A stretch of DNA of 64,000 bases from contig JAXHVO010000049.1 in assembly GCA_034189135.1 (NCBI GenBank), positions 1-64,000 on the forward strand, given 5' to 3'. This DNA is from Thermodesulfobacteriota bacterium (GTDB lineage: Bacteria; Desulfobacterota; Desulfobacteria; Desulfobacterales; JAUWMJ01). The notes below the pieces were generated by a model, which had not been told where the DNA came from, did not search any database, and saw only the letters and a list, made by a program, of their open reading frames with translations. The position numbers and the translations under genes are program-made. Below, in pieces: positions 2,274-4,135 of the stretch; positions within the stretch are counted from its first letter, which is position 1, and each line of letters starts with the position of its first letter.

Positions 2274-2768
2274 ATGCCCATATATGAATTTTATTGCAAA
2301 AATTGTAACACCATATTTAACTTTTTCTCTAAAACCATCAATACCCATAAAAGGCCGAAATGTCCTAAATGTAAAACTGCCACGCTTTCAAGGCAGATGT
2401 CGGCTTTTGCCTTCACCGGGAAAGCGACTGAGGACAGCGATATGGAAGACCTGCCTTTTGACGAAAGTAAAATGGAACAAGCAATGAATATGCTTGCCGG
2501 TGAAGCTGATAAAATCAATGAAGATGATCCCGGACAGGCTGCAAATCTTATGCGGAAACTTACCGATATGACGGGAATGCAACTCGGACCTGGAATGGAA
2601 GAGGCGCTCAGCCGAATGGAAAAAGGCGAGGACTCTGAAAAAATCGAAGCGGAAATGGGCGATATCTTGGAAGGGGAAGAACCCTTCTTGTTTCCAGGTA
2701 AAACAGGTTCTGGGAAAAAGAAAAAACATCTCAAACCACTTGTAGATGAGACGCTTTATGACCTGTAA
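2274..2768 (+). CDS. FmdB-family zinc ribbon protein
   Basis: The first 45 residues are the FmdB zinc-ribbon: CKNC near residue 8 and CPKC near residue 35, with the typical MPIYEFYC opening. The remaining 120 residues are acidic and rich in Met, Glu and Asp, which is common in the Desulfobacterota versions. The fmdB family was named as a putative regulator of formamidase, but the function of this form is not known. It follows plsC by 17 bases and an AAAAGGACC ribosome binding site. Confidence 0.8.
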   Translation: MPIYEFYCKNCNTIFNFFSKTINTHKRPKCPKCKTATLSRQMSAFAFTGKATEDSDMEDLPFDESKMEQAMNMLAGEADKINEDDPGQAANLMRKLTDMTGMQLGPGMEEALSRMEKGEDSEKIEAEMGDILEGEEPFLFPGKTGSGKKKKHLKPLVDETLYDL

Positions 2769-2806
2769 CCGAACAGGGAAGATTATCGATTAACGGATGG
2801 AAACCT

Positions 2807-3328
2807 TTGAAAAAAGAACTTTTACAAAAAATAGAGGTCAAACAAGGAGATATCACTAAACTCAAGGTCGATGCCATTGTGAACGCCGCTAACCAATCTC
2901 TTCTTGGAGGCGGCGGTGTCGATGGAGCAATCCATCGAGCGGCAGGGCCTGAGCTGCTGAAAGAATGCAGGATTATTGGAAGATGCCCAATAGGAGAGGC
3001 AAGGATAACGAGCGGGTATGATCTTTTTGCCAGATATGTGATCCATACCGTTGGCCCGGTTTACAGCGGAAAGCCTAAAGACAGCCGCCTGCTGGCACAA
3101 TGCTACCTAAACAGTTTGAAGCTTGGAGTAGATCATCATGTTAGATCCATTGCATTTCCGGCCATCAGTTGTGGAGTATATGGCTATCCGGTAAAAGATG
3201 CATGCCGGATTGCAGTGGATACCACATCCGGCTTTCTCGATAAAAACAGGTCCATTGAAAAGGTCATGTTTGTCCTTTTTTCCGCGGAAAATTTAAAAAT
3301 TTATGAGGCTTACCTGTCGAAAGCCTAA
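2807..3328 (+). CDS. Macrodomain protein, probable O-acetyl-ADP-ribose deacetylase
   Basis: A single macrodomain of 173 residues. NAANQSLLGGGGVDGAI near residue 26 binds ADP-ribose, and AISCGVYGYP near residue 119 forms the second binding loop. These match the MacroD/YmdB class, which removes acetyl or ADP-ribosyl groups from ADP-ribose derivatives. Translation must start at the TTG at 2807; the nearby ATG at 2797 is out of frame. It is 38 bases downstream of the FmdB gene and may end that transcript. Its physiological substrate cannot be told from sequence. Confidence 0.85.
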   Translation: MKKELLQKIEVKQGDITKLKVDAIVNAANQSLLGGGGVDGAIHRAAGPELLKECRIIGRCPIGEARITSGYDLFARYVIHTVGPVYSGKPKDSRLLAQCYLNSLKLGVDHHVRSIAFPAISCGVYGYPVKDACRIAVDTTSGFLDKNRSIEKVMFVLFSAENLKIYEAYLSKA

Positions 3329-3376: not shown

Positions 3377-3443
3377 TAGCGAAACCCAAATAAACCGAAG
3401 ACAGCTTTCATGATGGAGGGCTTATCTTAAAAAGGAGGATAAA

Positions 3444-3758
3444 ATGGTTGAGGTAACAGAATCGGCTACGAAACAGATTGCCGAGTATTTTGATGGGAAG
3501 GAAATATCCCCCATACGGATTTTCTTGAACGAAGGCGGTTGAGGGGGGCCTTCTCTGGCAATGGCTCTGGATGAGCCAAAAGACAGTGATGAAGTTTATG
3601 AAATTGAAGGATTCAAATATATTGCTGATAAAGATTTCATGGAAAAAGCAAAACCGGTAAAAATTGATTTTACCTCATACGGCTTTAAACTTTCCAGCAA
3701 TATCGATTTTGGTTCAAGCTGTTCAGGCTGTTCTACTAGCGGTTCCTGCTGCAGCTAG
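3444..3758 (+). CDS. HesB/IscA-like selenoprotein (in-frame TGA = Sec33)
   Basis: The real gene runs from ATG 3444 (AAAGGAGG just upstream) through an in-frame TGA at 3540-3542 to TAG at 3756-3758, 104 residues in all. The same family elsewhere has Cys at this place (...LNEGGCGGPSLAMALD...), so the TGA very probably encodes selenocysteine. A hairpin 21-35 bases after the TGA is a good bacterial SECIS (listed separately). Homology is continuous across the TGA, with no frameshift. The C-terminus is Cys-rich (SSCSGCSTSGSCCS), a likely metal or redox site. The fold is that of A-type iron-sulfur carriers; HesB-like selenoproteins are a known family in anaerobic Desulfobacterota. Automatic annotation would call this a pseudogene or a 65-residue protein from 3561. 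Confidence 0.88.
3563..3577 (+). promoter_or_regulatory. Bacterial SECIS hairpin
   Basis: GGCUC, loop UGGAU, GAGCC: a perfect 5-bp stem with two guanines in a 5-base loop. The loop guanines lie 27 bases after the TGA at 3540-3542, inside the window where bacterial SECIS elements bind SelB. It lies within the coding sequence, as bacterial SECIS elements do. Confidence 0.75.
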
Positions 3759-4135
3759 AGCATAGATTTATTTAATTTCGATGAAGACGTAAAAAAATAT
3801 CATCGATGTCACCAATAAAATACAAAGGGCAATACTCACAGGGTATTGCCCTTTGTTGTTGTTGACTGTTTTTCTCAGTAATGTTAGTGAGTGATTTGGT
3901 AAAAATTTAAACCTCCCGCTAAAAAGCTGATAGACCGGAAAGACATACAAAATGTTTATTGTTACGGCTTTATCGTATGTTGACTAGGTACGAAATGCAT
4001 CACCAAATCCCGCTGTACTGAAACGGGAATGTTGTTACCAAACCACCATATTTGAAATGATGCCACTGGCAACCCTCCATAAATGAAGCGTGTAAGCCCA
4101 ACCATACTGAATAGACCGATACTTAAGGTGAACCT
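3759..4135. other. Intergenic spacer, 377 bases
   Basis: Apart from the terminator at 3823-3855 I see no coding region. The sequence before the next gene ends in AAGGTGAACCT, a usable ribosome binding site for the ATG at 4136. Confidence 0.5.
3823..3861 (+). terminator. Intrinsic terminator after the selenoprotein gene
   Basis: A perfect 13-bp stem (CAAAGGGCAATAC at 3823-3835 and its complement at 3843-3855) with a 7-base loop is followed by a T-rich stretch. It would end the selenoprotein transcript and isolate it from the 776-residue protein downstream. Confidence 0.85.

Follow-up and report, generated by a model that had tools for sequence, protein, structure and literature searches.

The gene and its UGA codon

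The frame at positions 3444–3758 on the plus strand of the window, the 64-kb (64,000-nucleotide) stretch of DNA analyzed here, very probably encodes a genuine HesB/IscA-like selenoprotein, with the UGA codon at 3540–3542 predicted to specify selenocysteine 33 (Sec33). This identity had been proposed in a sequence-only reading of the DNA and is supported by a match to the family model NF038090, by the selenocysteine (Sec) machinery of the genome, by the presence of either TGA or a Cys codon at the same site in homologues, and by a stem that is linked to the TGA. The Shine-Dalgarno sequence, the UGA codon, the Cys-rich tail, and the two hairpins described below are likewise on the plus strand. 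Translation of the window gives a single frame from ATG to TAG, comprising 104 codons and the stop, with only one in-frame TGA, at codon 33 in the motif GG-U-GGPSL. A Shine-Dalgarno sequence, AGGAGG, was read directly at 3433–3438 and is followed, 5 nt downstream, by the ATG at 3444. The earlier description of a 104-codon frame with a good ribosome binding site and a TGA at codon 33 is exact to the base. The frame ends in a tail rich in Cys (C93, C96, C102, and C103, encoded at 3720–3755), and a strong intrinsic-terminator-like hairpin of 16 bp lies downstream of the gene at 3822–3856.

Genes for an FmdB-like and a macro-domain protein are located upstream (window positions 2274–3328). Of 80 relatives, 25 have an FmdB-like gene and 21 a macro-domain gene in the vicinity of HesB, which suggests a neighborhood shared by descent; we draw no function from it. 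The HesB gene had no match in the phage collection.

Family assignment

Over residues 1–95 the predicted protein scores 116.2 bits with NF038090 (NCBIfam IscA_HesB_Se, IscA/HesB family; cut-off 85), so that the homology claimed on both sides of the TGA is borne out. It also passes the cut-off of Pfam PF01521 (28.8 bits versus 26.3). The UGA is at a conserved Cys position and forms the motif U33-G-G-P36, in agreement with the UxGP motif of the HesB-like selenoproteins in the literature (TIGR01911, HesB_rel_seleno), from which the protein differs in scoring only 33.3 bits with that model (cut-off 66.35); the protein was therefore assigned to the sister model NF038090. Scores with the IscA, SufA, and ErpA equivalog models (31, 25, and 22 bits) are below the respective cut-offs of 151, 136, and 117. 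A search of the genome with PF01521 missed even the present HesB gene, and its outcome was therefore not taken to speak against further A-type carriers in the genome.

HesB-like selenoproteins have been on record since 2005–2006 (PMC1242214, PMC1794560) and are listed in Desulfovibrio, Geobacter, Syntrophobacter, and others, with documented Sec-to-Cys exchange (PMC1794560, PMC13188914); the name "HesB-like protein" and the motif UxGP are given in PMC13188914. Because the family is already named and modeled (NF038090, PMC13188914), the term "hidden" in the sequence-only reading was an overstatement, although the identity that it gave to the gene stands. The gene is a new, ordinary member of a known HesB-like selenoprotein family for which NCBI models exist, and it shows no notable difference from the NF038090 family, whose members in this order mostly carry a TGA. 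The family is present in 252 of the 291 genomes searched, all from the same order, and most of the family matches listed contain exactly one TGA.

Conservation of the UGA codon and of the SECIS hairpin

A hairpin with the stem GGCUC/GAGCC and the loop UGGAU is predicted at 3563–3577, from +21 to +35 relative to the UGA, where a hairpin with a GG-containing loop had been described. It has the characteristics of a bacterial SECIS element, namely a position shortly after the UGA and a loop that has a G close to its beginning. The stem comprises 5 bp and is extended to 6 bp in the source genome by the pair U3562-A3578. Folding of the 67-nt local RNA gave a z-score of −0.91, which is not significant and was not used as evidence for the hairpin. 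Rfam at gathering thresholds gave no match in the 64-kb window, so no curated RNA family stands behind the hairpin. A mechanical scan of the same window for a TGA followed by a hairpin with a G-containing loop returned three further sites, apparently spurious. In view of these sites and of the ordinary folding energy, the frame and hairpin alone are not decisive.

The case is settled by conservation, which has three components. (i) The 120 distinct homologues that span the site have TGA in 103, TGC in 13, and TGT in 4; since part of the set was collected for its similarity to the present protein and Cys forms were added on purpose, the ratio of 103:17 does not represent a population frequency. 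Relatives with the TGA form include the cultured Desulfonema magnum and Desulfocicer vacuolatum. The 17 Cys forms bear out the earlier statement that the position is Cys in related proteins. (ii) The full 5-bp stem is present in 98 of the 103 TGA homologues as compared with none of the 17 Cys homologues (Fisher p = 1.4e-16, a value that overstates independence because the homologues are related to one another). In one TGA form (genome G253) the stem reads GGTTC/GAACC, a compensated pair that keeps the folding. (iii) Synonymous sites in the stem are frozen in the TGA forms: Ala41 is GCT in 102/103, Leu42 is CTG in 102/103, and Glu44 is GAG in 101/103. In the same sequences all four codons occur for each of Pro36, Ala39, and Pro45, and GAT alternates with GAC in the loop. 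In the Cys forms Ala41 also occurs with all four codons, GCT being used in 4 of the 14 that have Ala at this position.

In one relative (genome G230, contig C403), Cys and TGA copies of HesB are separated by about 0.5 kb, and the stem is whole in the TGA copy only. The most divergent hairpin observed among the TGA forms is a bulged structure, UUGCUC..GA-AGCAA, in two loci (genomes G097 and G048) from a genus that also has the second elongation factor, selB*, described below.

Selenocysteine machinery of the source genome

The source genome (4.63 Mb, 95.5% complete, 140 contigs) had been predicted to contain selA, selB, selC, and selD, and all four were found with scores above the cut-offs: selA on contig C37 (604 bits), a canonical selB on contig C140 (375 bits), selD, with an in-frame TGA of its own, on contig C62 (379 bits), and a canonical tRNA-Sec on contig C30 (75 bits). 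The components of the Sec route are thus present, and we infer their use at the HesB UGA. SelA, with selenophosphate from SelD, would generate the canonical Sec-tRNA(Sec), which SelB would bring to the UGA at 3540–3542 with the aid of the SECIS hairpin at 3563–3577, leading to the incorporation of Sec33.

About a dozen other UGA frames of known selenoprotein families were found in the genome, and the matches that contain TGA include four of FdhA type and eight of FlpD/MvhD type. As judged from these predicted genes, the genome is rich in selenoproteins. The UGA-containing FdhA and FlpD/MvhD frames are on contigs C130, C48, C55, C57, C90, C94, and C106, and one FlpD match (C130:4205–4573) contains two TGAs. 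In a check that covered FdhA, SelD, and the FlpD loci other than the last ones, the readable UGAs precede hairpins whose loops are GGUC or of GGA type, at a distance similar to that in HesB.

Predicted fold and role

The AlphaFold model of the protein has a pLDDT of 79, with values below 50 in the C-terminal tail. The best Foldseek match is IscA (1r94; E = 7.8e-7, TM 0.67–0.72), in keeping with an A-type carrier fold; further structural matches are IscA with a [2Fe-2S] cluster (1x0g), SufA, and DsrR from Allochromatium vinosum (2k4z), the last being a likeness in fold. In Aq_1857, a member of the IscA family, the conserved Cys aligns with U33, which also aligns with the first ligand position of the A-type Fe-S carriers IscA, SufA, and ErpA, which share the fold. 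The protein differs from these carriers in having a predicted Sec at that position and a tail of the form CxxC...SCC in place of CGC. In an alignment of 35 sequences in which UGA was read as Cys, residues 33, 93, and 96 are invariant.

The product would thus combine an IscA fold, Sec where IscA has its first cluster-ligand Cys, and an invariant C-terminal CxxC. From what is known of A-type carriers, Sec33 together with C93 and C96 would be expected to bind iron or an Fe-S cluster. C93 and C96 are likely to be metal or cluster ligands together with U33, and Sec33 could act as a ligand or as a redox residue; given the low pLDDT of the tail, contact between Sec33 and C93/C96 is putative. On the basis of fold and conservation, the most probable role is the binding or handing on of iron or an Fe-S cluster in the manner of an A-type carrier, and we consider the chances of such a carrier role to be about even. 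A 2026 review describes the roles assigned to HesB-like and similar selenoproteins as founded on bioinformatics (PMC13188914).

A second UGA reader and other readings of the codon

The genome contains a second UGA-decoding set, a tRNA and a selB, at C62:115831–117880, and the reading of the HesB UGA as Cys had therefore to be weighed before Sec was assigned. The tRNA (approximately C62:115831–115922) has a UCA anticodon, an 8-bp acceptor stem with A1:U72, U73 preceding CCA, and a T-stem of 4 bp that carries a bulged A, and it lies ~45 nt before the second selB, whose product has ~30% identity with canonical SelB. These features agree with those described for selC* tRNA-Cys and selB* in Desulfobacterales and Syntrophobacterales, where the tRNA is thought to carry Cys (PMC7609411). 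The tRNA features and the downstream selB* are shared with the reported sets, but the adjoining cysS* reported in Desulfobacterales (PMC7609411) is missing here: no CysRS was found in C62 between about 108 and 137.9 kb. CysRS matches above the cut-off are on contigs C129 and C27. The second of these (C27:31413–32777) lies within an open frame of 772 residues, of which the adjoining part resembles cysteine synthase, and the frame is possibly a CysK-CysRS fusion. Inspection by eye of the region downstream of the C62 set indicated genes for an HgdB-like protein, a cysteine desulfurase, a YedE-like transporter, and selD.

The presence of this set, together with the 17 homologues in which Cys functions at the site, would be consistent with decoding of the HesB UGA as Cys by the selC*-type tRNA, which has a UCA anticodon and Cys identity features, and SelB*. 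The lack of a dedicated cysS* next to selB* argues against this, as does the distribution of selB*. A search with the second SelB gave matches of at least 35% identity in about 29 of the 291 genomes (ordinary SelB gives ~30%), four candidates being scored in each genome and some genomes being incomplete. Among the matches listed, 120 of the 133 genomes with a TGA-form HesB have no selB*-like match, and in ten genomes that have selB* the HesB hairpin retains the same loop and, with a few variants, nearly the same stem as elsewhere. Nineteen genomes had no SelB match of any kind among the four candidates scored per genome and were left out as evidence. The wide absence of selB* and the similarity of the hairpins make the ordinary Sec route by far the likelier, and we regard decoding as Cys as improbable. 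We assign a similarly low probability to a dual reading, in the source genome and in its relatives with selC*/selB*, in which one hairpin would serve both SelB and SelB* so that the HesB UGA, and perhaps others, would be read as Sec or Cys depending on selenium supply.

Initiation at an in-frame ATG (3561) past the TGA, with the upstream part untranslated, is less probable still. The resulting 65-residue ORF exists mechanically, but many conserved positions of the relatives fall within residues 1–32, AGGAGG stands before 3444, and a protein begun at 3561 would lack the key residue and have an incomplete IscA fold. A pseudogene or a one-base sequencing error at the TGA, for which there is nothing to cite other than the stop codon itself and an assembly in 140 contigs, has a negligible probability and is contradicted by the comparison of homologues: the same TGA is present in 103 of the 120, one of them 93% identical, the remaining frame is intact and conserved, and the stem is conserved with TGA only.

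Implications

The assignment of Sec33 corrects the reading of one gene. The comparative evidence that the HesB hairpin is a working SECIS element is strong, in that no Cys form in the set retains the hairpin whole. The family, for which a carrier role is tentatively predicted, is found in most genomes of the order. A reader of UGA as Sec and a probable reader of UGA as Cys coexist in one genome, so that the question of which reader takes which UGA becomes testable.
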